A stretch of 64,000 nt of DNA from Microbacterium sp. UFMG61 (GTDB lineage Bacteria; Actinomycetota; Actinomycetes; Actinomycetales; Microbacteriaceae), in NCBI RefSeq assembly GCF_015354505.1, contig NZ_JACAFP010000004.1, positions 1 through 64,000 of the forward strand. The letters run 5' to 3'. The notes below the pieces were generated by a model. That model was not told the DNA's origin, did not search any database, and worked only from the letters and a program-made list of their open reading frames with translations. The first letter of the stretch is position 1. Every line of letters begins with the position of its first letter. Of this stretch, positions 2,746 through 13,027 are shown one piece after another. The translations under genes and the position numbers were made by a program.

Positions 2746-4064
2746 GAGGTGAGTCCTCCGAACTCGCTGGTGAGGGCAGTGAGCCGCTGCCACGAATCGC
2801 CCACGGTGCTCAGATCGTCCATCGGCTGGGTGAGGAAGCGCGCGATCTCGGGTTCGTGCTCGAGCGCGGCATCGACGAGTGGGTTGGCGCCCTGTCGGTA
2901 GGCGCCGATGTCGATGAGATCGTTCGCGCTGCGACGCGCCGCCAGCACACTGCGCAGCGTCACCGCCTGCTGCCGTTGGTCCGGTGTCGTGATCTTCGAG
3001 ACCACACGCGATACGGATCCGAGGACATCGACCGCGGGGAAGTGTCCCCGGATCGCGAGTGCCCGATCGAGCACCACGTGGCCGTCGAGGATGCCGCGCG
3101 CCGCATCGGCGATCGGCTCATTGTGGTCGTCGCCGTCGACGAGCACCGTGTACAGACCCGTGATCGAACCGGTCTCGCCGGTGCCGGCGCGCTCGAGAAG
3201 TCGCGCCAGAACCGAGAACGTCGACGGCGGATAGCCGCGGGTCGCCGGCGGCTCGCCGGCGCTGAGCCCGATCTCGCGCTGCGCCATGGCGACGCGGGTG
3301 AGCGAGTCCATCATCAGCACGACGTCGAGACCGTCGTCGCGGAACTGCTCCGCGATGCGGGTCGCGACGAAGGCCGAGCGCAGGCGCGCCATGGCGGGCT
3401 GGTCGGAGGTCGCGACCACGACGACCGAGCGCGCGAGGCCCTCAGGCCCGAGGTCGTCTTCGAGGAACTCTCGCACCTCGCGGCCACGCTCGCCCACGAG
3501 GGCTATCACCGTGACATCGGCCGATGACCCCCGCGCGATCATCGACATGAGCGACGACTTGCCGACGCCCGAGCCGGCGAAGAGGCCGAGGCGCTGACCG
3601 GAGCCGACGGGCGTCATGGTGTCGAGAACGCGCACGCCGAGTCCGAGCTGACGATCGATCCGTCGCCGAGTGATGACGCTCGGCGCATCATGATCGAGGG
3701 GCACGAGAGGTGCGGTGCGCGGCAGCGGACCCAGACCGTCGATCGGTCGCCCCAGACCGTCGAGCACCCGTCCGAGCAGCCCGCGGCCGGTCGGCACCTG
3801 CAGCGGCGCTCCCGCGTGCCGAACCCGCGCGCGCGCCGTGATGCCGTCGAGCCGGCTGAGCGGCATGCAGCGTGCGGATGCCCCGTCGATGGCGACGATC
3901 TCGGCATCGACGGCGCGTCCGCTCGTCGTGTCGATGCGCACGCGGTCGCCGACCGCGCCCGTGACTCCGCGTACCTCGACGCCGAGTCCACGGACCGCCT
4001 GCACGACGCCGGTGTGCTCGGGCCGCGCGGCTCTGAGGGCGCTCGACCAGGTGCTCGTCGTCAC
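2742..4064 (-). CDS. fliI: Flagellum-specific export ATPase FliI
   Basis: FliI hydrolyses ATP at the base of the flagellar type III export apparatus, helping unfold and load substrates. The 440-residue protein has the F1-beta-like layout: an N-terminal beta-barrel (about 1-90), a nucleotide-binding domain with Walker A FAGSGVGKSSL near residue 165, ALVGERGREVREF, and the Walker B strand DVVLMMDSLTRVAMAQREIGL. It also has GEPPATRGYPPSTFSVLARLLERAG, a flagellar/type III ATPase signature, and a helical C-terminus. The length is typical. It overlaps fliH at its start and fliJ at its end by four bases each, forming a coupled H-I-J unit. Confidence 0.97.
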   Translation of the reverse strand: MTTSTWSSALRAARPEHTGVVQAVRGLGVEVRGVTGAVGDRVRIDTTSGRAVDAEIVAIDGASARCMPLSRLDGITARARVRHAGAPLQVPTGRGLLGRVLDGLGRPIDGLGPLPRTAPLVPLDHDAPSVITRRRIDRQLGLGVRVLDTMTPVGSGQRLGLFAGSGVGKSSLMSMIARGSSADVTVIALVGERGREVREFLEDDLGPEGLARSVVVVATSDQPAMARLRSAFVATRIAEQFRDDGLDVVLMMDSLTRVAMAQREIGLSAGEPPATRGYPPSTFSVLARLLERAGTGETGSITGLYTVLVDGDDHNEPIADAARGILDGHVVLDRALAIRGHFPAVDVLGSVSRVVSKITTPDQRQQAVTLRSVLAARRSANDLIDIGAYRQGANPLVDAALEHEPEIARFLTQPMDDLSTVGDSWQRLTALTSEFGGLTS

Positions 4065-4702
4065 CGGACGATCTCCTCGCCCTGATCGGTCTCACCCTCG
4101 AGGGCCGCGTGCACGCGCCGCAATGCCTCGCGGATGCGGGTGTCGACCGCGCCGTCTTCGATCTCGACGAGTGCCCCGCCGGCATCCACCGACGATGATC
4201 CGATCACCTCGACGCCGGAGACGACCTCGCTGAGGTCGTCGTCGTCGTGAACCGTCCGGGCATCCTGCTCGCTCAGGACCACCCGCGTCCATCGCTCCAC
4301 GGGAATCTCGGCGACGGCCCTGCGCACGGCGTGCGCGGCGGCACGCGCCGGATCCGACAGCTCCGTGCCGAGGACCATCGTCGCGAGCTCGAGGGCGAGC
4401 CGCTCGAGCCCCTCAGCATCGAGCGCTCGCAGAATATCGGCGCGGGTGTCGAGCGCCGCACGCGCTGTGTCGAGGGCCTGCAGCGCCGACCCCCGCTGAT
4501 GCAGGTAGGTCTCGGCGAGTTCACGCTGACGATGCTCCGCGATGTCGGCCTGCCGCACCGCCTCGACACGTGCCCGCCGGAGGCCCTCCGCATAACCGTC
4601 GGCATAGCCGCGCGCTCGCGCCTGATCGGTCTCCCCACGGAGGTCCACGGGAGGCTCGCCCACACGCGGCACCACCAGCGGCGTGAAGGCGGAATCGAGC
4701 AC
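4061..4702 (-). CDS. fliH: Flagellar assembly protein FliH
   Basis: FliH binds FliI and tethers the ATPase to the C-ring. The product (about 213 residues from GTG 4702) begins VLDSAFTPLVVPRV. It has a helical Ala/Arg/Glu-rich middle with GYADGYAEGLRRARVEA (Gly-repeat helix) and a C-terminal FliH/YscL domain with a VVLSEQDARTV strand pattern and GGALVEIEDGAVDTRIREAL. An in-frame ATG at 4837 overlaps the fliG stop and would add 45 residues. Those residues are poorly ordered and cover a flagellar promoter element at 4777-4805, so I prefer GTG 4702, which has CGGGG eight bases upstream. The stop overlaps fliI. Confidence 0.85.
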   Translation of the reverse strand: MLDSAFTPLVVPRVGEPPVDLRGETDQARARGYADGYAEGLRRARVEAVRQADIAEHRQRELAETYLHQRGSALQALDTARAALDTRADILRALDAEGLERLALELATMVLGTELSDPARAAAHAVRRAVAEIPVERWTRVVLSEQDARTVHDDDDLSEVVSGVEVIGSSSVDAGGALVEIEDGAVDTRIREALRRVHAALEGETDQGEEIVR

Positions 4703-4776
4703 GGTAGGCACCCCGGGAGTCGAAGGTCTGGCCTGTCCGTGGCCCGAAGGGCGAGCGATCCGTGCTCCCCCGGCAC

Positions 4777-4805
4777 TATCGCGACACTGCGGCGATGGCG
4801 TAACC
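4777..4805 (-). promoter_or_regulatory. Flagellar promoter-like element before fliH
   Basis: On the minus strand GGTTACG (4805-4799) is followed after 13 bases by GTCGCGATA (4785-4777). The same pair with identical spacing stands before flgB, and a 12-base-spaced version stands before fliC. A downstream block GAGCACGGAT (4767-4758) is also shared with flgB at the same distance. The CGATA core of the second box resembles the sigma-28 -10 (GCCGATAA). It probably starts a fliHIJ-x-fliK-flgD transcript. Confidence 0.6.
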
Positions 4806-4833
4806 ATCCCCGCGTCCCGCCGCGGCACAGGGA

Positions 4834-5922
4834 TCACTCGATGAGCTCGTCCTCGTCCTCGCGGGAGATCGTGATCTCCTCGGACGCCTCGAGCTCGCGG
4901 ATGATCCGCACGATCTCCGAGCGCGCCTCGTCGACCTGACGCATGCGAACCGGGCCGAGGACCCTGGTCTCCTCCGTCAGGTTCTCCTGGTTGCGCTCGG
5001 TCATGTTGGTGCGCACCTTCTCGACGATCTGCTCATCGGCGCCTTTCATGGCGAGCGCGAGCATCCGCAGATCGATGCCGCGCAGAACGCGCTGCGCATC
5101 GCGATCTTCGAGACGCGCGAAGTCGGCGAACGTCACCATGCGGCTCCGGATGTCTTCCGCCAGTGCCAGGTCGCGCCCCTCGAGAGAGGCCAGCAGCGAC
5201 TTCTCGAGTGCGGTGTCCGAGCGATTGATGATCTCGACGAGCGGCTGCACTCCCCCGATCGACTCGTGGTTGTCGCGCATCGCGAACACCCCGGTGCGCG
5301 AGCGCAGCGAGTCGGCGACGATCGAGATCGCTTCCTGCGTCGCGGTGCCCATCGTCGCGATGGCCTGGGCGACGTCGGTGCGCAGCGGATCCTGCAGCGC
5401 GGCGAGCACCGCGGCGGCGCGGTCTGCGCGCAGGTTCGCCAGCACGACGGCGACGGTCGTCGGCAGCTCGCCCTCGAGGATCGTGGCCAGCTGCGCGGGA
5501 TCCGCGGCGTTGAGGAAGTCGAACGACACCGAGCCCTGCGACATCACCCGGCCGACCATTCCGACCGCCTTCTCACGCCCGAAGGCGGTCTCGAGAAGGC
5601 CGGTCGCGAGTTCCTGCCCGCCGCGCGACGGCACCGAGCCACCGGTCGCGATGCGACGGAACTCTCCGAGCGCACGGGCGGTGGATGCCACGTCGACACC
5701 ACCGAGCTGCGTGAGCTCGGCGGCCAGCATCTCGGAGCGCTCCTCACCGAGATGACGCAGCACCTCGGCTCCTGCAGCACGGTCCATGTTCATCAGCACG
5801 ATGGCGGCCTTGCGCAGACCGCTCATCTCCTGCGCGGGTGCCTCGGCCGACGATGCGGTCGAGGCCGTGGACACCTCGATCGTGTCGGCCTGCGCGTCGA
5901 GCAGCTCGGTCAGCGCGCTCAT
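4834..5922 (-). CDS. fliG: Flagellar motor switch protein FliG
   Basis: FliG is the rotor protein of the C-ring; its C-terminal charged helix interacts with the stator. The 362-residue protein has the standard three ARM-type domains. FliG_N begins at about residue 33 (MSGLRKAAIVLMNMD). FliG_M is at about 130-210, with an SFDFLNAADPAQLATILEGELPT-type segment. FliG_C is at about 230-330, containing LALAEDIRSRMVTFADFARLEDRDAQ with the torque-helix acidic and basic residues, then MLALAMKGADE. A roughly 30-residue Ser/Ala/Thr-rich extension precedes FliG_N. The start overlaps fliF by four bases. The fliH promoter element is just beyond its stop, so fliG closes the flgB-led operon or reads through. 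Confidence 0.97.
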   Translation of the reverse strand: MSALTELLDAQADTIEVSTASTASSAEAPAQEMSGLRKAAIVLMNMDRAAGAEVLRHLGEERSEMLAAELTQLGGVDVASTARALGEFRRIATGGSVPSRGGQELATGLLETAFGREKAVGMVGRVMSQGSVSFDFLNAADPAQLATILEGELPTTVAVVLANLRADRAAAVLAALQDPLRTDVAQAIATMGTATQEAISIVADSLRSRTGVFAMRDNHESIGGVQPLVEIINRSDTALEKSLLASLEGRDLALAEDIRSRMVTFADFARLEDRDAQRVLRGIDLRMLALAMKGADEQIVEKVRTNMTERNQENLTEETRVLGPVRMRQVDEARSEIVRIIRELEASEEITISREDEDELIE

Positions 5923-7559
5923 ACCCTCGCCTCATCCATCAGGCTCGCGAGAGCGCCGGCGATCGCTTCGGGCTCGCGCTTCGCCAGGTCGTCGATCTCG
6001 CGGCGACGGCGCTCGACGAGCATCTGGTCGGGCTCGCGCTCCTCATCGAGGTCGACGTCTGCCGACGACAGCGGGCGTGTCGGAGCAGGCAGCGGGATCG
6101 CATCCCCGTCCTTCAGCCCCCTCAGCGACTTCAGCTTCTGCTCTTCGCTCTCGGTCACCGTCGCGAAGTACTCGATCGGGCCCTCGTCGGTGTACATCAC
6201 CCGTCGCTTCAGCTTCCGGCGCACCGCGAGGAACACCACGAGGATGATCACCGCGAGAAGGATCGATCCGCCGATGATCGCCGACCGCAGCAGCTCCTGC
6301 TGCATCTGAGCCGCCTGCTCGGCCTCGGCGGCCTGCAAGGCGGTCTGAGCCGCCGTCGCACCCGTCTCGCTGAACTCGACGAACTCGACGGCGATCGCGT
6401 CGCCCCGTTCCAGGTCGATCCCGGCGGCCGACGCGACGAGAGTCTCGACCTGGGCGGCGGTGACACCGGTGACCGCTCCGCGGTTGAGCGCGATGCTCAC
6501 GGTCTGCCGGGTGACCTCTCCCGCCGGCGTGACGGTCTTCTCGGTCGACTTGTTCACGGCGTTGTCGCGCGAGGTCTCCTCGAACTCGTAGGCGCCGTCA
6601 CCCGCGGCGCCGTTGGGCACGGCGATGTTGTCGGGGCCGAGCACGCCGGTGCCCCCGGCCTGACCGCCGGTGTAGGTCTCCGTCTTGGTCTGCTCCGACG
6701 CGCTGAGGGCGCCCTCGGGAGCCGAGTAGGTCTCATCCATGCGCTCGGACGTCGAGTTCGCGACGTCGGCCGAGACCGTCACGGTCGCGTTGCCGGGACC
6801 GACGATCGTCTCGAGCATGGAACTCACGGATGCCGCGACCTTCGCCTCGTGCTCGGTCGCCTGCTTCGACGAAGTGCCGGTGAGCCCCGCGCCCACGGCG
6901 GAGAGCACAGCGCCGTTCTGATCCGTGACGGCGACGTCCTCCGGGGTCATTCCCGGCACCGCCGCGCTCGTGAGATGCACGATCGCCGCGATCTTCTCGT
7001 CGCCGAGCGTCGAGCCGTTGCGGGTCTTGACGAAGACGGATGCCGTCGGGCTCTGCCGCTCCGACACGAAGACGCTCTCCTCGGGAATGGCGAGCTGCAC
7101 GGATGCCGCGGTGATGCCGTCCATCGAACCGATCGTGCTCGCGAGCTCCCCTTCGATGGCGCGCTTGTAGGTCACGGACTGCTGGAACTCGCTCGCGGTC
7201 ACGCCCATCTTGTCGAGCAGCGTGTATCCCTCGCTCGAGTCGCCGGGGAGACCGGCGGATGCCGCGGCGAGTCGCTGGGCGTAGACCTGATCGTCCGGGA
7301 CCAGGATCGTCGCGCCGCCCTCGGCGAGCTCGTACGAGACGCCGGCGGTCTTCAGCTGGTCGACCACGGCGGAGGCGTCTCCGGCGCTGAGCCCGGTGAA
7401 GAGCGGACTCATCTGCGGTCGCGCGAGCCACGATCCGAGTGCGATGGCGCCCATGACGAGCAGTGCCACCCCGATGATCGCGATCGTCCGCTGGGCGAGG
7501 GAGAAGCCTGAGACGACCTGCTTGGCGCGGTCGAAGTACCCCGTGAGCATTTTCGGCAT
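5919..7559 (-). CDS. fliF: Flagellar MS-ring protein FliF
   Basis: FliF forms the membrane-embedded MS-ring on which the motor and export apparatus assemble. The 546-residue protein has a first membrane helix at about 24-44 (RTIAIIGVALLVMGAIALGSWL). The YscJ/FliF domain follows (PLFTGLSAGDASAVVDQLKTAG..., about 50-230), then FliF_C (about 250-410), a second membrane helix near 435-455 (IIGGSILLAVIILVVFLAV) and a cytoplasmic FliG-binding tail ending in LASLMDEARV. Length and layout are normal for Gram-positive FliF. The start lies three bases after the fliE stop, and the end overlaps fliG. Confidence 0.97.
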   Translation of the reverse strand: MPKMLTGYFDRAKQVVSGFSLAQRTIAIIGVALLVMGAIALGSWLARPQMSPLFTGLSAGDASAVVDQLKTAGVSYELAEGGATILVPDDQVYAQRLAAASAGLPGDSSEGYTLLDKMGVTASEFQQSVTYKRAIEGELASTIGSMDGITAASVQLAIPEESVFVSERQSPTASVFVKTRNGSTLGDEKIAAIVHLTSAAVPGMTPEDVAVTDQNGAVLSAVGAGLTGTSSKQATEHEAKVAASVSSMLETIVGPGNATVTVSADVANSTSERMDETYSAPEGALSASEQTKTETYTGGQAGGTGVLGPDNIAVPNGAAGDGAYEFEETSRDNAVNKSTEKTVTPAGEVTRQTVSIALNRGAVTGVTAAQVETLVASAAGIDLERGDAIAVEFVEFSETGATAAQTALQAAEAEQAAQMQQELLRSAIIGGSILLAVIILVVFLAVRRKLKRRVMYTDEGPIEYFATVTESEEQKLKSLRGLKDGDAIPLPAPTRPLSSADVDLDEEREPDQMLVERRRREIDDLAKREPEAIAGALASLMDEARV

Positions 7560-7562
7560 GGC

Positions 7563-7880
7563 TTAGGCCTGCATCCTCATGATCTCGTTGAAGGCGGACA
7601 CGCTGCGGTCGCGCACGGCGACGACCAGGTCGAGTGTCACGGAGGCGCGCGAGGACGCGATCATCGCCTGGTGGATGTCCTGCAGATCGCCGGTGACCGC
7701 CTGCACGGCGAGTTCGTTCGACGACGCCTGCAGCTGCTGGAGATTCTCGACGGCTCCGGTCATCGAGGTGGCGAAAGCGCCGCCACCGGTCGTGGCCGGC
7801 GCGTCGACATCACCCTCGAAGCTCAATGCGGAGAGCGGGCTGACGCCTGCGGCCGAGATCCCCTCGATGGGAGTGCTCAT
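7563..7880 (-). CDS. fliE: Flagellar hook-basal body protein FliE
   Basis: FliE joins the MS-ring to the proximal rod. The 105-residue protein has a variable N-terminus (sites for I, P, Gly and Asp residues) and then the conserved helical pair typical of FliE: LQQLQASSNELAVQAVTGD, followed by IHQAMIASSRASVTLDLVVAVRDRSVSAFNEIMRMQ. The C-terminal AFNEIMRMQ is a hallmark of the family. The ATG shares one base with the flgC stop (TGATG), so translation is coupled with flgC, and fliF follows after three bases. Confidence 0.95.
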   Translation of the reverse strand: MSTPIEGISAAGVSPLSALSFEGDVDAPATTGGGAFATSMTGAVENLQQLQASSNELAVQAVTGDLQDIHQAMIASSRASVTLDLVVAVRDRSVSAFNEIMRMQA

Positions 7881-8272
7881 CAGTTGCGTCCGATCTGCAG
7901 CGCTGCCTCGTAGGTCGTCTTGGCACGGTCGACGACGGCGGCGTTCGCCTCATAGCCGCGCTGCGCGACGATGAGCATGCTCATCTGGTCGCCGAGTTCG
8001 ATGTTCGGGTATTGCACGTACCCCTCGGCATCGGCGTAGGGGTGTTCGGGGTCGTGGACGCGCTTCGCCTCCGCCTCGGATTCGACGACGCCGGCGACGA
8101 ACACACCCGGGCTATCGGTGCCGGCCTGCACGGTGACGAGCTTCTCGCGGAACGCCTCTTCGCCCGCAGGTGTGGCCGTGTTCACATTGGCGATGTTGTC
8201 GCTGAGCGCATCGAGCCACTTCCGGTGCGCGGTGAGACCGGAGCCGGCGATGCCGATGGCGTCGAAGGTCAT
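7880..8272 (-). CDS. flgC: Flagellar basal-body rod protein FlgC
   Basis: FlgC is a proximal rod component. The 130-residue product starts MTFDAIGIAGSGLTAHRKW and contains LDALSDNIANVNT, the flg_bb_rod signature shared by axial proteins. It ends in the conserved C-terminal helix DQMSMLIVAQRGYEANAAVVDRAKT...ALQIGRN, where RGYEAN is diagnostic. The ATG at 8272 overlaps the flgB stop as ATGA. A much longer upstream-open frame in this register is only the shadow of flgB and is rejected. Confidence 0.96.
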   Translation of the reverse strand: MTFDAIGIAGSGLTAHRKWLDALSDNIANVNTATPAGEEAFREKLVTVQAGTDSPGVFVAGVVESEAEAKRVHDPEHPYADAEGYVQYPNIELGDQMSMLIVAQRGYEANAAVVDRAKTTYEAALQIGRN

Positions 8273-8616
8273 GCGGAGGCCTGGCCGATCGCTTTGGTGA
8301 TCGACGCGGACTGACCGCCGATCGCCTGGCTCGCGAACTGGAACCGCAGCACCGTATCGATGTTCGACAGCGTCTCGGTGTCGAGGTTCACGTTGTTTCC
8401 GTTGATCCGCGTCGGCTCGAGCGACCGTTCGACCGTGGGGGTCACAGATCCCGACCCCGAGGAGACGGCGGAGCGGAGCTCGTCTTCGAACTGCACCCGC
8501 TTGGCCTGGTAACCGGGGGTGTTGACGTTGGCGATGTTCTCGGCGATCGAGCGCTGGCGCAGCGCCAAGCCGTCGAGCGCGCTGATCAGCGCGGAAGAGG
8601 TGACCGATTCGAGCAC
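8269..8616 (-). CDS. flgB: Flagellar basal-body rod protein FlgB
   Basis: FlgB is the most proximal rod protein. From GTG 8616 the product is 115 residues: a short lead-in, then ISALDGLALRQRSIAENIANVNTPGYQAKRV, the flg_bb_rod motif. The C-terminal half has LRFQFASQAIGGQSASITKAIGQ. GTG 8616 is preferred to an in-frame ATG at 8658 because GGAG sits six bases before the GTG and the extra 14 residues do not look like FlgB. A promoter-like element lies at 8688-8716, so flgB heads the flgB-flgC-fliE-fliF-fliG operon. The stop overlaps flgC. Confidence 0.93.
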   Translation of the reverse strand: MLESVTSSALISALDGLALRQRSIAENIANVNTPGYQAKRVQFEDELRSAVSSGSGSVTPTVERSLEPTRINGNNVNLDTETLSNIDTVLRFQFASQAIGGQSASITKAIGQASA

Positions 8617-8687
8617 GGGGCACTCCGGAGGTTGGTGGAGAAGCCGATCCCTGGCCAATCGTCGAGCTATCCGTGCTCAGGTGGGAC

Positions 8688-8716
8688 TATCGCGACAGAG
8701 CGTGCGCGGCGTAACC
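8688..8716 (-). promoter_or_regulatory. Flagellar promoter-like element before flgB
   Basis: On the minus strand GGTTACG (8716-8710), 13 bases, then GTCGCGATA (8696-8688). Identical boxes and spacing occur before fliH, and GAGCACGGAT at 8678-8669 is shared at the same offset. The element lies in the 108-base gap between the flgB start and the upstream gene, so it would drive the flgB operon, leaving a leader of about 60 bases ending in GGAG. This is the best-placed of the three copies. Confidence 0.65.
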
Positions 8717-8724
8717 CCGTCGGC

Positions 8725-9006
8725 TCACCCTTCGACGTCGAGGTAGGCGGGAGTGTCGCCGGGGCTCGCGGTCGGAACGCGACGCAGCGCGGCGATCTCG
8801 CGCGCGACGTGGGCACGCGACGCGACGAGGCCGCCGATCATGAGCTGCTGGCGCGCGAGCACGGCCTCGGCTCGTTCACGAAGGTGCTCGGGGATGGGGC
8901 CTGCCGGCCTGTCGAACTCCGTCGGCTCCAGCTGCTCGTCGGCGGCGTCGAGGGCACGCTCGAACTGGTCGAGCACTGCCAGCCATGCCGTGAGGTTGTC
9001 GGGCAC
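8725..9006 (-). CDS. Small helical protein at the FliT position
   Basis: This 93-residue helical protein (VPDNLTAWLAVLDQFERALDA...) starts with GTG six bases after the fliS stop and ends just before the flgB promoter element. Many flagellar clusters carry fliT, a chaperone for FliD, directly after fliS. This protein has FliT-like size, a helical composition and a Trp/Leu/Phe-rich first helix followed by AEAVLARQQLMIGGLVASRAHVAREIAAL. No conserved motif is strong enough for a firm name. A chaperone role is inferred from position only. Confidence 0.75.
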   Translation of the reverse strand: MPDNLTAWLAVLDQFERALDAADEQLEPTEFDRPAGPIPEHLRERAEAVLARQQLMIGGLVASRAHVAREIAALRRVPTASPGDTPAYLDVEG

Positions 9007-9012
9007 GAGCGG

Positions 9013-9426
9013 TCAGGCCGATGCCGTGGCGATGCCGTGCGCAGAGCCGGTCATCGAGGCGGCGGCTTCGTGCCAGGCGTCTCGGAGCGGTGCGATGATG
9101 TCGCGGCATTCCGCGGTGATCGCCGCGTCACGATCGATGTTGGCGGTGATGAGGCGACCGGTCAGGTACGTGTAGACACCGCGCAGGTCATCAGATCCGT
9201 CCCAGACATCGGTGAGCGAGCCGTTCAGCTCGGCGACGATCCACTGCGCGTGCGTGAGGTGGGTGCCGGCGGCGATCCAGTCGCCCGCGTCCTGCGCGAC
9301 GCGCGCGCGGTCGACGTCGACCAGCAGGCGGTCGTACAGGAGGATCAGCAGACGCTCGGGCGAGGCGGATGCGACCTGCTGCTCGAGATACTGCTGCTTG
9401 GCACGGTCGAGCGAGGTGATGGGCAT
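9013..9426 (-). CDS. fliS: Flagellar export chaperone FliS
   Basis: FliS binds the C-terminal helix of flagellin and keeps it unpolymerised until export. From ATG 9426 the product is 137 residues, a normal length. The family signature is clear: DRAKQQYLEQQVASASPERLLILLYDRLL near the N-terminus, followed by ELNGSLT and YTYLTGRLITANIDRD, then a last helix with PLRDAWHEA. GGAG lies nine bases before the ATG. It follows fliD by about 40 bases and is followed by the FliT-position gene, forming a chaperone pair next to its substrates. Confidence 0.95.
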   Translation of the reverse strand: MPITSLDRAKQQYLEQQVASASPERLLILLYDRLLVDVDRARVAQDAGDWIAAGTHLTHAQWIVAELNGSLTDVWDGSDDLRGVYTYLTGRLITANIDRDAAITAECRDIIAPLRDAWHEAAASMTGSAHGIATASA

Positions 9427-9467
9427 GATTTTCGACTCCAATGCGGATGCGAGATCGGCGCGTCCGG

Positions 9468-10835
9468 TCAGGACGACGACGAGCTGGGGGTCATCGCGGC
9501 GAGCTGGCCCGTGAGCCAGGTGGACTGCGACTGCAGCTTCGAGAGCTGCACCTCGAGCTGCGCGTACGTGCGCTCGAGCGTCGCCTGGCGCTGCTCGAGC
9601 CGGATGTCCCACCGCTCGACCTGCGTCTTGAGGGTCTTGACCTCGGACTCCTGCCCGGTGATCCGGGCGGTCAGCAGCCCGTCGTACTTGTCGGAGTACT
9701 GCGTGGCGACGCCTTCGAGTCTGCTCGCCACTCCCGAGAAGAGCTCCTGGGTCGCCTCGGGGTCAGCGGCCACGGCCGCCGCGAACTTCTCGGCGTCGAA
9801 CGAGAGCACCCCCTTGTCGCTGATCGTGATCCCGATCGTCGACGGCGAGATTCCGTTCACCGGATGCTGCACGGCGTTCGCGAGCGCTGTGCGGAGGTTG
9901 CGGACGGTGCTGTCGCCGGTGAAGACACCGAGGGTGGTCGACTCTCCCACATCGCCGACCGTCGCCTTCGAGCCGTTGTCGATCCGGGTCAGCAGCGACG
10001 CGATCTCCTTGATGAAGGCCTCGGCGGTGGACGTCTGCTTCTTCTCGTCGCGGGTGACCGTCACCATGACGGGGTCTGCGCTCGGCTTCGACACCGTGAC
10101 GTCGATGCCTTCGCCCACGCTGATGGTGTTGCTCGCACTCGTCAGCGCCTGCTCTGCCGCGGTGCCCGCGAAGAGGCGCACTCGAGCGTCAGCACCCTGG
10201 GTGAGGAGGGCGGCGCCGGACTCGGACCCCATGTCGACGGACGTGCCTGCGGTGACGTCAGCCGCGGATCCTCGGTGGATGGTGAACTCGCCGGCCTCGC
10301 CCGTCTCGATGGAGGTCAGCTGGATGCGCGAGAGGGGCTTGCCGTCGGCATCCGTCCCGGCGGGGACCACCGTCGCCATGACACCGGCCTTGGCATTGTT
10401 GATCGCCTTCGCGAGATCCCGAGGCCCGGTCCCGGTCGGCGTGATCTCGACGGGCTCGCCATCGGTTCCCACCACGGTGAAGGTGCCGCCCCAGGCCGAC
10501 GATCCGGCTGCGGCGGTCACGACGGAGTGCGCGGTGGCGACGGCGTCGACGACGATGCCGGTCGAGAACGCGCTGGCCGTGGATCCTGCCGTCACCGTCA
10601 CGCTCTCCGACGAGGACGACGCGGTGAACGAGGCGGGTGAGGTCGGTGCCGCCGCGGTCTTGGCCTTGGTGACGAGGTCCTGCAGCGTCGTGTTGAGTGA
10701 CTGCAGGTTGTTGATGATCGTGTTGCGGTCGGCGATCTTGTTGGTGATCAGCGTCTTCGGGATCGCCGACACGTCCATCAGCGCCTTGATGAGCTCTTCC
10801 GTCTTGAGCCCTGATACGAGTCCGTCGAGTTTCAT
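9468..10835 (-). CDS. fliD: Flagellar hook-associated protein 2 / filament cap FliD
   Basis: FliD caps the filament tip and promotes flagellin insertion. The 455-residue protein begins MKLDGLVSGLKTEELIKALMD, matching the FliD N-terminal domain (usual GLxSGLDT variant). It has Ser/Thr-rich variable domains in the middle and the FliD_C helices near the end (GVASRLEGVATQYSD, ITGQESEVKTLKTQVERWDIRLEQRQATLERTYAQLEVQLSKLQSQSTWL). The length is typical. It starts 101 bases after the fliC stop, with a strong hairpin between them, so its expression may depend on read-through from fliC or on an unseen promoter. Confidence 0.95.
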   Translation of the reverse strand: MKLDGLVSGLKTEELIKALMDVSAIPKTLITNKIADRNTIINNLQSLNTTLQDLVTKAKTAAAPTSPASFTASSSSESVTVTAGSTASAFSTGIVVDAVATAHSVVTAAAGSSAWGGTFTVVGTDGEPVEITPTGTGPRDLAKAINNAKAGVMATVVPAGTDADGKPLSRIQLTSIETGEAGEFTIHRGSAADVTAGTSVDMGSESGAALLTQGADARVRLFAGTAAEQALTSASNTISVGEGIDVTVSKPSADPVMVTVTRDEKKQTSTAEAFIKEIASLLTRIDNGSKATVGDVGESTTLGVFTGDSTVRNLRTALANAVQHPVNGISPSTIGITISDKGVLSFDAEKFAAAVAADPEATQELFSGVASRLEGVATQYSDKYDGLLTARITGQESEVKTLKTQVERWDIRLEQRQATLERTYAQLEVQLSKLQSQSTWLTGQLAAMTPSSSSS

Positions 10836-10878
10836 CCCGGTCGTCTTCCGTGCGATGCGGTCAAGGTGTCCTACAGGA

Positions 10879-10914
10879 AGGCGCCCGGGCGGAGGTGAGT
10901 CCGCCCGGGCGCCT
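10879..10914 (-). terminator. Strong hairpin between fliC and fliD
   Basis: A perfect 15-base-pair inverted repeat (10879-10893 with 10900-10914) with a six-base loop and only C/G-rich pairs stands 23 bases after the fliC stop. The following bases are TTCCTG rather than a T run, as is common in GC-rich actinobacteria. It can act as a terminator or partial attenuator, setting a high flagellin to low cap-protein ratio, or it may protect the fliC mRNA 3' end. Confidence 0.75.
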
Positions 10915-10936
10915 GGTGCGCCTCAGGCGCAGCGAC

Positions 10937-11809
10937 TCAACGGAGCAGCTGCAGGACGCCCTGACCCGACTGGTTCGCCTGCGCGAGCATGGCGGTACCG
11001 GCCTGAGCCAGGATGTTCGAGGCGGTGTACTTGACCATCTCGGCCGCCATGTCGGTGTCGGCGATGCGGCTCTTGGCCGCACCCAGGTTCTCCGCCGAGA
11101 CCTGCAGCGAGTTGATCGTCGACTCGAAGCGGTTCTGCGCCGCACCGAGGTCCGCACGCTGCGACGAGATCGCGGTGATCGCGGTGTCGATCGCGGTGAC
11201 GGCCGCGGCCGCCTCCGTGGCCGAGTCGAACGAGAAGGCCGCAGTGACGGCATGCGTGGACGCGGCTCCGGCAGCACCGTAGGTGATGTCGGTGATCGAG
11301 GCCAGAGCGGCCTTCAGGTCACCGCGGTCGACCGCGATCTGCGACGACGCGTCTCCGTTGGCTCCGACCTGGAAGCTCAGAGCGGCGCCTCCCTTGAGCA
11401 GGTCGATGCCGTTGAAGTTCGTCGAGTCGGCGATGCGGACCAGTTCGTCGGTCAGCTGGGTGACCTCGGTCGTGATCGCGGCGCGCGAATCGGCGTTGTT
11501 CGAGTCGTTACCGGCCTGCACCGCCAGGTCACGCACACGCTGCAGGATCGAGTGCACCTCGGTGAGCGCGCCTTCTGCGGTCTGGATGACCGAGATGCCG
11601 TCCTGAGCGTTGCGGGCTGCGACGTTCAGGCCGTTGACCTGCGAGCGCAGGCCCTCGGAGATGGCGAGGCCGGCGGCGTCATCGGCAGCGCGGTTGATGC
11701 GCAGACCGCTCGAGAGCTTCTCGAGCGACTTCGAGACGTCGTTCTGGTTGACGGACAGGTTGCGGTACGCGTTGAGCGCGCCGACGTTGGTTGCGATCTG
11801 AAGACCCAT
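10937..11809 (-). CDS. fliC: Flagellin FliC
   Basis: This is the filament subunit. The 290-residue protein is a short flagellin. The N-terminal D0/D1 helices are at about 1-140 (GLQIATNVGALNAYRNLSVN, LSSGLRINRAADDAAGLAISE, ISVIQTAEGALTEVHSIL). A small variable middle follows (about 145-205), and the C-terminal D1/D0 helices end in NILAQAGTAMLAQANQSGQGVLQLLR. The ATG at 11809 has an excellent GGAGG seven bases upstream; an in-frame extension further upstream is rejected. It stands alone between a promoter-like element and a strong hairpin, as expected for a highly expressed monocistron. Confidence 0.98.
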   Translation of the reverse strand: MGLQIATNVGALNAYRNLSVNQNDVSKSLEKLSSGLRINRAADDAAGLAISEGLRSQVNGLNVAARNAQDGISVIQTAEGALTEVHSILQRVRDLAVQAGNDSNNADSRAAITTEVTQLTDELVRIADSTNFNGIDLLKGGAALSFQVGANGDASSQIAVDRGDLKAALASITDITYGAAGAASTHAVTAAFSFDSATEAAAAVTAIDTAITAISSQRADLGAAQNRFESTINSLQVSAENLGAAKSRIADTDMAAEMVKYTASNILAQAGTAMLAQANQSGQGVLQLLR

Positions 11810-11870
11810 GTTTATCCTCCGTGGTGATGGGACCGAATGCCGGCCCATCCGTGGGCCTGCACTCTCCACA

Positions 11871-11897
11871 TTCGCGACGCGCGGATCGCCCGTAACC
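11871..11897 (-). promoter_or_regulatory. Flagellar promoter-like element before fliC
   Basis: On the minus strand GGTTACG (11897-11891) is followed after 12 bases by GTCGCGAA (11878-11871), matching the elements before flgB and fliH except for one base less in the spacer and A for T in the second box. It lies 62 bases before the fliC ATG and after the sigma gene stop, so it is well placed to drive fliC. Confidence 0.6.
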
Positions 11898-11914: not shown

Positions 11915-12772
11915 TCAGACGGCGGCGAGCACGCGCGCAACCGGGGCTTGCTCCGCCGGGGCGGCGGCGCCGAACAGCGTCTCGAAGAAGTCGGACCGGG
12001 CCTTCGTCGAGCGGTCTCCGGTCGTGCCGTCCTCCCACGCCTGCATGGCCTCGCGCATCAGCGTGAGTCCCTTCGAGCGCAGCTTTGAGACGTAGGCATG
12101 GCTGACCGCGAGCTCCTCCGCGATGTCCTTCACCATGCGATCGTCGAGGTAGATGCCGCGCACCACCTGGCGCATAGCCTCGGGAAGCGCGTCGATGACC
12201 CGTGCGAGCATCGTGCGCAGTTCCGACTGTTCGACAGCGTGCTCGGGCAGGATCACACTGTCGGTGAGGTCTGCCGCCTGACGCCCGGTCTCCACGTCGA
12301 AATACTCCTCGAAGCTGGTCGCCGTGCGCACCATCTCGTCGAGCTTCTGCATCTCCACGACCGCGTCGATGTCGAGTCCGGACTCCCGCGCCAGCTCTGC
12401 GGTCGTCGCGATGCGGCCGGTCCGCGCGAGTACGGCCTCGGCTGCGACACGGAGGCGCTCGATCTTGTCTCGGCTGCGTTCTCCCGCGGGGTCTGCACGA
12501 CGCATCTCCGAGAGCATCGCCCAGTTGATCTGGCTGCTCGCGAACGCACCGAAGGGAATGCCGCGAGAGGCGTCGTACGACATCGCGGCTCGGGCGAGTC
12601 CCATCCGTGCCGCCGAGAGCAGATCGTCGAGATCGACGTGCGTCGCCGAGCGCGCCTTCTCGACCGCCAGGAAGGTGGCGAGCGGCATGTTCTCGCGTGC
12701 GAGTTGTTCCGCTGTCGGAGCGACAGCCTGACCCGAGTTGGAATCAGCGAAAACATCAGAATGACGCGGCAA
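11915..12772 (-). CDS. RNA polymerase sigma factor of the FliA/WhiG (sigma-28) type
   Basis: This is an alternative sigma factor that probably drives the flagellar genes downstream. The 285-residue protein has sigma-70 region 2 (VDLDDLLSAARMGLARAAMSYD...ASSQINWAMLSEMRRADP, about 45-95). A region 3 helix pair (RTGRIATTAELARESGLDIDAVVEMQ) is at about 115-145, and region 4 (LPEAMRQVVRGIYLDDRMVKDIAEELAVSHAYVSKLRSKGL) is at about 205-250. FliA/WhiG proteins share this layout without region 1.1. The TTG start at 12772 is supported by GGAG five bases upstream. An Ala-rich tail extends past region 4. It sits just upstream of fliC at the head of the cluster. Confidence 0.85.
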   Translation of the reverse strand: MPRHSDVFADSNSGQAVAPTAEQLARENMPLATFLAVEKARSATHVDLDDLLSAARMGLARAAMSYDASRGIPFGAFASSQINWAMLSEMRRADPAGERSRDKIERLRVAAEAVLARTGRIATTAELARESGLDIDAVVEMQKLDEMVRTATSFEEYFDVETGRQAADLTDSVILPEHAVEQSELRTMLARVIDALPEAMRQVVRGIYLDDRMVKDIAEELAVSHAYVSKLRSKGLTLMREAMQAWEDGTTGDRSTKARSDFFETLFGAAAPAEQAPVARVLAAV

Positions 12773-13027
12773 TGTGACTCCGTGGCTTGTTCAACTGGTT
12801 TATCAGGAACATAGCAGGATTTACGCATATACAAGTAGAAAATTGAGACTGTTTGTCGCGTCGATGGCGCACCACAGGACTGCAGCGGCAGACGACCATC
12901 GTCAGATTCGCCTCTCGTGCGCGGCATCCTCTGCTCACTAGACTCGACGCGTCACTGCACAGGACGATCATCGACGGGATCCTCGGTCGGCGGAATGAGC
13001 AGTGCGGACCGACGAAAGAGGACGACG
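12773..13027. promoter_or_regulatory. Divergent intergenic region, AT-rich half next to the sigma gene
   Basis: This is the 255-base gap between the sigma gene (minus) and the molybdoenzyme operon (plus). About 80 bases near 12785-12850 are clearly AT-rich against the surrounding sequence. On the minus strand TTGTAT is followed after 15 bases by TATGTT, a possible housekeeping promoter for the sigma gene. On the plus strand TAGACT at 12939-12944 could be the -10 for the operon starting at 13028, leaving a leader of about 75 bases. The flagellar element is not present here. Confidence 0.45.

Follow-up and report, generated by a model that had tools for sequence, protein, structure and literature searches.

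Three flagellar transcription units in a 64,000-nucleotide stretch of the Microbacterium sp. UFMG61 genome (contig NZ_JACAFP010000004.1, positions 1 to 64,000; here called the window) are headed by a two-box element, GGTTAC-N13/14-GTCGCGA(T/A), and the gene for a FliA/WhiG-like sigma factor lies directly upstream of one of them, fliC. From comparison of sequences, we conclude with a probability of roughly 75% that one group within the genus Microbacterium carries a duplicated FliA together with recoded flagellar promoters, and that the leaders of these units contain CsrA-type hairpins. The source genome is 3.72 Mb in size, and the window has a G+C content of 68%.

FliG was found in 92/299 genomes of the family and in 37/149 genomes of the genus. 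The comparison set consisted of 46 genomes, namely the source genome and 45 flagellate genomes from which the flagellar region was extracted, and it was divided by FliG identity alone, with no use of the promoter. Group A (n = 21) comprises the source genome and 20 members of the genus with FliG identity to the window of at least 72%. Group B (n = 25) comprises 15 members of the genus plus 10 genomes taken from the 90 FliG-positive ones that the family has outside the genus, all with FliG identity of at most 64%. One of the 37 FliG-positive genus genomes (G384, in which FliG is split and the genome is 68% complete) was omitted, and nine non-flagellate genomes of the genus served as a contrast set.

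The promoter element and its distribution

The original prediction placed three copies of GGTTACG-N12-13-GTCGCGA before fliH, flgB, and fliC, and a rereading of the sequence agrees. With the spacer widened to N11-14, the window holds the same 3 matches (4779-4805, 8690-8716, and 11872-11897, all on the minus strand), and each of 100 shuffles holds 0. The exact motif occurs in 4 copies in the genome. The relaxed form GGTTAC-N13-15-TCGCGA has 5 matches, before the fliC, flgB, fliH, fliP, and flbD units, and its reversed control has none there. The motif is thus not randomly distributed over the genome, as all five relaxed matches stand before flagellar genes. The copies before fliP and flbD lie on a second contig, C15, which encodes Pfam domains of the flgE, motA, motB, fliM, fliO, fliP, fliR, and flhA types as well as csrA. 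A sixth copy, before flgN, begins with A; with either A or G in that position, the site is present in 10/12 group A genomes scanned there (G330 and G407 lack it). The fliH copy falls within the longest open reading frame of its frame (4061-4837), and fliH itself probably begins farther downstream, with the GTG at 4702. We distinguished flgB from flgC by gene order.

The strict motif, GGTTAC-N12-15-GTCGCGAWA, occurs in all 21 group A genomes and in 0/25 of group B. By a manual count of match coordinates against the places of FliG, CsrA, and FliW, 81 of its 82 matches lie inside flagellar clusters, the exception being G309:C1:847233; the reversed control gave a single match across the 46 genomes. 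The local classical FliA promoter, CTAAC-N14-17-CCGATAG, was found in 25/25 group B genomes, some matches lying off the flagellar clusters (e.g., in G193, G295, G306, and G006), and in 2/21 group A genomes, both times as one identical, off-cluster site; its reversed control gave 9 matches across the 46 genomes. Both strands of the extracted regions hold only the new type in group A and only the classical type in group B, with neither in G295 and G193.

Counted by leader, a loosened form of the new motif is present in 20/20 fliC, 21/21 flgB, 18/18 flbD, 17/18 fliP, and 16/21 fliH leaders of group A, and a loosened classical pattern is present in 25/25 fliC and 24/25 flgB leaders of group B. The distance from the first T of the -35 box to the G of GATA is 23 bp in 73/92 and 22 bp in 19/92 group A sites, and 22 bp in 48/49 group B sites. 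Since the element shares its positions at fliC and flgB with the classical promoter and its spacing is within 1 bp, we consider it the same promoter with a changed code. On this reading, TAAC in the -35 box gave way to TTAC preceded by an added GG, and GCCGATAG in the -10 box to GTCGCGATAGT. The search pattern fixes GTTAC as well as some positions of the -10 box, so that in the base frequencies at these promoters they are conserved by construction; the evidence lies in the free positions and in the 92/98 leaders that match. A looser motif searched over the 299 family genomes gave mostly scattered single matches, and its reversed control also matched many genomes, so that only the gene-anchored comparison is informative.

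The fliC-adjacent sigma factor and the canonical FliA

The gene upstream of fliC, described in the original prediction as FliA/WhiG-like, belongs to the Microbacteriaceae FliA clade of our tree. Its product scores above the Pfam cut-off for Sigma-70 regions 2 and 4 (28.0 and 28.4 bits) and below it for region 3 (22.0 bits; cut-off, 25.3). The tree comprises 63 rows, seven partial or duplicate rows having been removed from the alignment and one badly aligned row before tree building. In it, the 20 sigma factors of the window type group as a single long-stemmed clade (100/100), nested in a 57-row Microbacteriaceae FliA clade (100/99) and sister to most FliA proteins of group A (86/82). A duplication within the family is likely but not proven, because the tree tool warns of long branches, and we are unsure of the placement inside the FliA clade.

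The window-type protein differs from FliA in residues expected to read DNA. Canonical FliA, from Escherichia coli to group B, has DW-x-(P/S/T)-R in region 2.4; the window type has DPAGE in 19/20 proteins and DPAGV in 1/20. It therefore lacks the conserved W88 and R91 (E. coli FliA numbering), with R91 replaced by E in 19/20. We take R91 and its neighbors to contact the extended -10 element. Region 4.2 differs as well, reading, e.g., VSHSAVSQQR in group B versus VSHAYVSKLR in most window-type proteins.

The distribution of this sigma factor matches that of the promoter. It is present in 20 of the 21 motif-bearing group A genomes; the exception, G401, is a draft (79% complete) whose contig ends in fliD, so that the fliC end of the cluster is missing and the sigma gene could not be seen. 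With the C15 sigma as the query, which detects the window type in group A, it was found in 0/25 group B and 0/9 non-flagellate genus genomes. One non-flagellate genome (G305) gave a weak match to that query (33% identity), which groups with other, distant sigma factors in the tree. At least 27 relatives of the window-type protein were confirmed among 80 stretches listed, all from Microbacterium or other Microbacteriaceae, and the carriers among the matches listed include M. oxydans, M. testaceum, M. hydrocarbonoxydans, M. aoyamense, M. galbinum, and M. oryzae. The suggestion that the element is the recognition site of the neighboring sigma factor is therefore well supported on sequence grounds: the motif is bound to the clusters, it replaces the promoter of the sister FliA, and it accompanies the sigma gene in 20/21 versus 0/25 genomes.

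No such promoter was found ahead of the sigma gene itself in the extracted regions, and the 80 bp upstream of it (12773-12852) are 40% G+C, compared with 68% in the window; another factor thus probably sets the level of the sigma factor. Its leader holds CACGGAGTCACATTG, a further ANGGA near the start. In G330, csrA (G330:C1:390813-390968) adjoins the window-type sigma gene; in the source genome, csrA follows flhA.

A second, canonical FliA/WhiG sigma factor is encoded on contig C15 (L006:10219-11043, minus strand). It keeps the canonical region 2.4, DELR-x-x-DW-x-PR, and is likely, from its sequence, the orthologue of the FliA-type sigma in group B fliC regions (47 to 55% identity). Among the group A genomes, this protein is intact looking in 12 (the source genome and 11 others), diverged in G164, decayed in G330 and G407, and was not found in G381, G309, G408, G322, G314, and G367. 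A profile search of the stretch around fliW detected no canonical FliA remnant in G381, G309, G408, G322, and G367. All eight genomes in which it is absent (six) or decayed (two) retain the new promoters. That 8/21 genomes keep the motif without a sound canonical FliA is our main evidence that the fliC-adjacent sigma factor reads it. By our own reading of the sigma tree, on which some forks are weakly supported, the absences imply about four losses.

These observations bear directly on the possibility that the C15 FliA reads the new promoters, alone or redundantly with the fliC-adjacent sigma factor. It is the better match to the FliA_WhiG family (144 versus 113 bits), it shares a contig with other flagellar genes, and it persists in the source genome and 11 relatives. 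Against this, its region 2.4 is of the kind that accompanies CCGATAG promoters in group B, and the GGTTAC promoters have outlasted it in the eight genomes named above. We consider this explanation improbable.

Three further observations concern the canonical gene. In G330 (L153) and G407 (L154), it is strongly decayed and has lost the DW-x-PR signature, and the reading frame is still open. The copy in G430 stands apart from other group A copies in the tree and may be a later gain. In the source genome, a gene for an HU-like DNA-binding protein (L006:11215-11877, minus strand) lies between canonical fliA and fliW.

Leader hairpins, CsrA and FliW

The original prediction had also remarked on a GAGCACGGAT block at an identical distance from two copies of the element and left it unexplained. 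The block does lie exactly 9 nt after GTCGCGATA at both fliH and flgB. In addition, fliC carries it, as GGCCC-ACGGAT-GGGCC. Judged from its sequence, the block most plausibly belongs to a hairpin of the CsrA type, with ANGGA in the loop. CsrA sites consist of GGA in hairpin loops, and RsmE structures show an ANGGAN hexaloop, according to the portion of PMC7652899 available. Hairpins with ANGGA loops are present in the leaders of four of the six units of the source genome, fliC, flgB, fliH, and fliP.

A pair of such hairpins, with loops 21 to 24 nt apart, precedes flgB in 45/46 genomes, in groups A and B alike, so that the hairpins probably predate the switch of promoters. The fliP leaders of group A have the pair in 16/18 genomes. 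Group A fliH leaders have the promoter and the hairpin pair together (16) or neither (5); the two come or go as one unit, as if copied as a module. A scan of strand totaling 2.28 Mb gave 77 hairpin pairs with a separation of 18 to 30 nt, every one of them inside the 18.6 kb of leaders, defined as the 140 nt before fliC and flgB and, in group A, also before fliH and fliP.

The fliC leader has a single hairpin, followed by ACGGAGG at most 22 nt from the start codon in 45/45 leaders. There is one candidate loop in each of the 45 leaders (39 of them distinct), and the stem was for this reason not selected by its pairing. The stem is uninterrupted in 42/45. Of its pairs, 90.4% form; the corresponding share is 70.3% for shuffles and does not exceed 50.0% in any slid version. 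The stem also covaries, with 63 two-sided cells versus 24.5 in shuffles.

CsrA and FliW are both encoded in 46/46 flagellate and 0/9 non-flagellate genomes. Actinobacteria have been named among the groups possibly using FliW to control CsrA, no target leaders being named in the section of that source at hand (PMC4682653), and PMC10384088 mentions csrA of a Microbacterium strain in connection with biofilms. An Rfam scan of the window gave a single tRNA and nothing else. The MCP chemoreceptor domain was found in 0/15 genomes (the source genome and 14 flagellate relatives), and a control set was positive in 7/14; in the 15 genomes checked, the flagella are apparently without classical chemoreceptors, and the chemotaxis part of the check suggested with the original prediction has no application here. 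The coordinates of the promoters, genes, and hairpins are collected in Table 1.

Table 1. Flagellar promoters, genes, and leader hairpins of Microbacterium sp. UFMG61 (positions refer to the window unless contig C15 is given)
Feature	Position	Strand	Basis
fliH promoter, GGTTAC-N14-GTCGCGATA	4777..4805	-	Motif; present in 16/21 group A fliH leaders
flgB promoter, GGTTAC-N14-GTCGCGATA	8688..8716	-	Motif; present in 21/21 group A flgB leaders
fliC promoter, GGTTAC-N13-GTCGCGAA	11871..11897	-	Motif; present in 20/20 group A fliC leaders
Further copy before fliP	C15:21245	-	Motif search
Further copy before flbD	C15:25161	-	Motif search
Sixth copy, AGTTAC variant before flgN and after csrA	C15:15623	-	Sequence read
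FliA/WhiG-family sigma gene (altered region 2.4, TTG start), proposed cognate sigma	11915..12772	-	Pfam, NCBIfam, tree
fliH, inferred GTG start, head of fliH-fliI-fliJ run	4061..4702	-	Pfam FliH, ATP-synt_ab/T3SS_ATPase_C, FliJ
flgB-like rod gene, inferred GTG start, head of run with flgC, fliE, fliF, fliG	8269..8616	-	Pfam Flg_bb_rod, FliE, FliF, FliG
fliC (flagellin), ATG at 11809	10937..11809	-	Flagellin_N/C
fliH leader hairpin 1, GAGC-ACGGATC-GCTC, CsrA-type ANGGA loop	4753..4767	-	Leader scan
fliH leader hairpin 2, GGCC-ACGGACA-GGCC	4730..4744	-	Leader scan; absent from minimum-energy fold
flgB leader hairpin 1, TGAGC-ACGGATA-GCTCG	8663..8679	-	Leader scan
flgB leader hairpin 2, GGCC-AGGGATC-GGCT	8642..8656	-	Leader scan; absent from minimum-energy fold
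fliP leader hairpins, CGAGC-ACGGATC-GCTCG, then GGCT-ACGGATC-GGCC	C15	-	Leader scan
fliC leader hairpin, GGCCC-ACGGAT-GGGCC, ANGGAN hexaloop	11842..11857	-	Leader scan, covariation
fliC Shine-Dalgarno region ACGGAGGA, also an ANGGA match	11815..11822	-	Sequence read

Proposed mechanism, alternatives, and known systems

Several observations weigh against the reading that we prefer. As to the sigma factor, its best NCBIfam match, FliA_WhiG (TIGR02479), scores 113.2 bits, below the cut-off of 189.6; the canonical C15 protein is under this cut-off as well (144.4 bits). An intact-looking canonical FliA persists in 12 group A genomes, and CTAAC-N14-17-CCGATAG has no match in the source genome despite the FliA retained there. 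The gain of the new sigma factor and the promoter change look like a single event on the tree, so that 20/21 versus 0/25 does not amount to 46 independent observations. As to the hairpins, the 140-nt leaders were chosen after hairpins had been noticed in them, and 278/477 single hairpins fall outside leaders. The number of fliC stem pairs with two-sided change (5) is close to that in shuffles (4.9), as is the number of further pair types (18 versus 16.5). The flgB, fliH, and fliP leaders of the source genome have folding energies that do not surpass those of shuffles (z, +0.9 to +1.2), and their minimum-energy folds contain the first hairpin and not the second. The fliC leader does fold its hairpin, at a z of -1.56, with 13/200 shuffles equally good. 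No such hairpin was found in flbD (0/18) or flgN (0/10) leaders.

The unremarkable folding energies of whole leaders are also what one might cite for taking the ACGGAT inverted repeats as DNA operators, or as part of the promoter, rather than as RNA hairpins bound by CsrA. The GAGC/GCTC stem at flgB, fliH, and fliP is nearly invariant and stands at a near-fixed distance, 14 to 16 nt, from the -10 box, as an operator might. The fliC stem, however, varies on both sides while its ANGGA loop stays, and the loop matches the ANGGAN loop of the CsrA family as described in the relevant part of PMC7652899. The same hairpins, moreover, follow a different promoter in group B, and CsrA and FliW accompany flagella in every genome checked. 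An operator function is, in our view, unlikely.

We regard as very unlikely that the element is a composite, made up of the -10 box of some other sigma factor and an activator site, GGTTACG, and not a flagellar sigma promoter at all. GGTTAC is indeed unlike the classical TAAA box, but in sister genomes these positions before fliC and flgB are held by the canonical FliA promoter, from which both boxes differ jointly, with the distance between them kept within 1 bp. Chance or a shared coding constraint is ruled out by the distribution (0/100 shuffles; reversed pattern, 0 matches in the source genome and 1 in 46 genomes).

We therefore return to the duplicated sigma factor with recoded promoters. 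The element GGTTAC-N13/14-GTCGCGA(T/A) would supply the -35 and -10 boxes for a sigma factor dedicated to the flagellar genes, the product of the gene at 11915-12772. This protein most likely stems from a duplicated Microbacteriaceae FliA and was altered in its DNA-reading residues. Flagellar promoters would have changed alongside it in the ancestor of one Microbacterium group; canonical FliA may then have become dispensable and been lost or have decayed several times. The diverged protein would steer RNA polymerase to the heads of the flagellar units, i.e., to rod, motor, export, and filament genes. Transcription would start about 7 nt past GATA, placing the first hairpin near the 5' end of the transcript.

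The leaders would then present CsrA-type sites, two hairpins each at flgB, fliH, and fliP and, at fliC, a single hairpin together with the Shine-Dalgarno region. At fliC, CsrA could bridge the hairpin and the ribosome-binding site and block flagellin translation until removed by FliW, much as for Bacillus subtilis hag. The hairpin pair at flgB, fliH, and fliP could hold one CsrA dimer, and either repression or protection from decay might follow. Recognition of the promoters by this sigma factor, the start sites, and the binding of CsrA with its sign are the parts of this scheme that we infer.

A more far-reaching version, to which we give even odds, is that the duplicated FliA displaced the original from the whole flagellar regulon, from basal body and motor to filament, through about six promoters recoded in concert, leaving a naturally orthogonal pair. 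Early and late genes would in that case share one sigma factor, so that the order of assembly and the amounts of its parts would be set largely after transcription, by CsrA and FliW acting on the paired hairpins that head structural operons, and so on more than flagellin. If this is true, the ancestral FliA has been caught at several stages of loss.

The lineage may thus serve as a natural experiment in which the specificity of a sigma factor changed without loss of its regulon, the original sigma factor being intact, decaying, or gone depending on the species. Our analysis supplies candidate specificity residues and promoters that can be tested. The leaders suggest that in Actinobacteria a CsrA-FliW scheme of the hag type extends beyond flagellin to other structural operons, which would open flagellar control in these bacteria to direct tests. 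Our search of the open-licence literature yielded no report of flagellar promoters in Microbacteriaceae and none of CsrA sites in actinobacterial flagellar leaders, although part of the search was weak.

We consider that two known kinds of system are probably represented here, each in a new variant. The first is the FliA/SigD/WhiG system, whose promoter consensus is given as TAAA at -35 and GCCGATAA at -10 in the available text of PMC8325347. The Microbacterium system resembles it in governing a flagellar regulon, in the FliA family membership of its sigma factor, in the GATA core, and in a spacing within 1 bp of that of the sister FliA promoter. It differs in its -35 box (TTAC preceded by GG, not TAAA or TAAC), in its -10 box (GTCGCGATA, not GCCGATA), and in a sigma factor without W88 and R91. 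Such a shift in specificity is unusual: a review states that SigD of B. subtilis is able to complement a fliA mutant of E. coli (PMC4598750), and WhiG is described as having the promoter specificity of the flagellar sigma factors (PMC8325347).

The second is control of flagellar leaders by CsrA. B. subtilis hag is repressed through two CsrA sites in its leader, one of them on the Shine-Dalgarno sequence, as the available pages of PMC7652899 describe, and the fliC leaders studied here likewise have two CsrA-type sites, one on the Shine-Dalgarno sequence, in genomes that encode both csrA and fliW. In contrast to hag, these leaders belong to Actinobacteria, and further units have hairpin pairs at their head, namely flgB and, within group A, fliH and fliP. 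The E. coli flhDC leader, which CsrA binds at two 5'-proximal sites (PMC7652899), is a further parallel, because in Microbacterium, too, two CsrA-type sites lie close to the predicted 5' end and away from the start codon. The putative sites in Microbacterium, unlike those of flhDC, appear to stand at structural operons and not at a master regulator.

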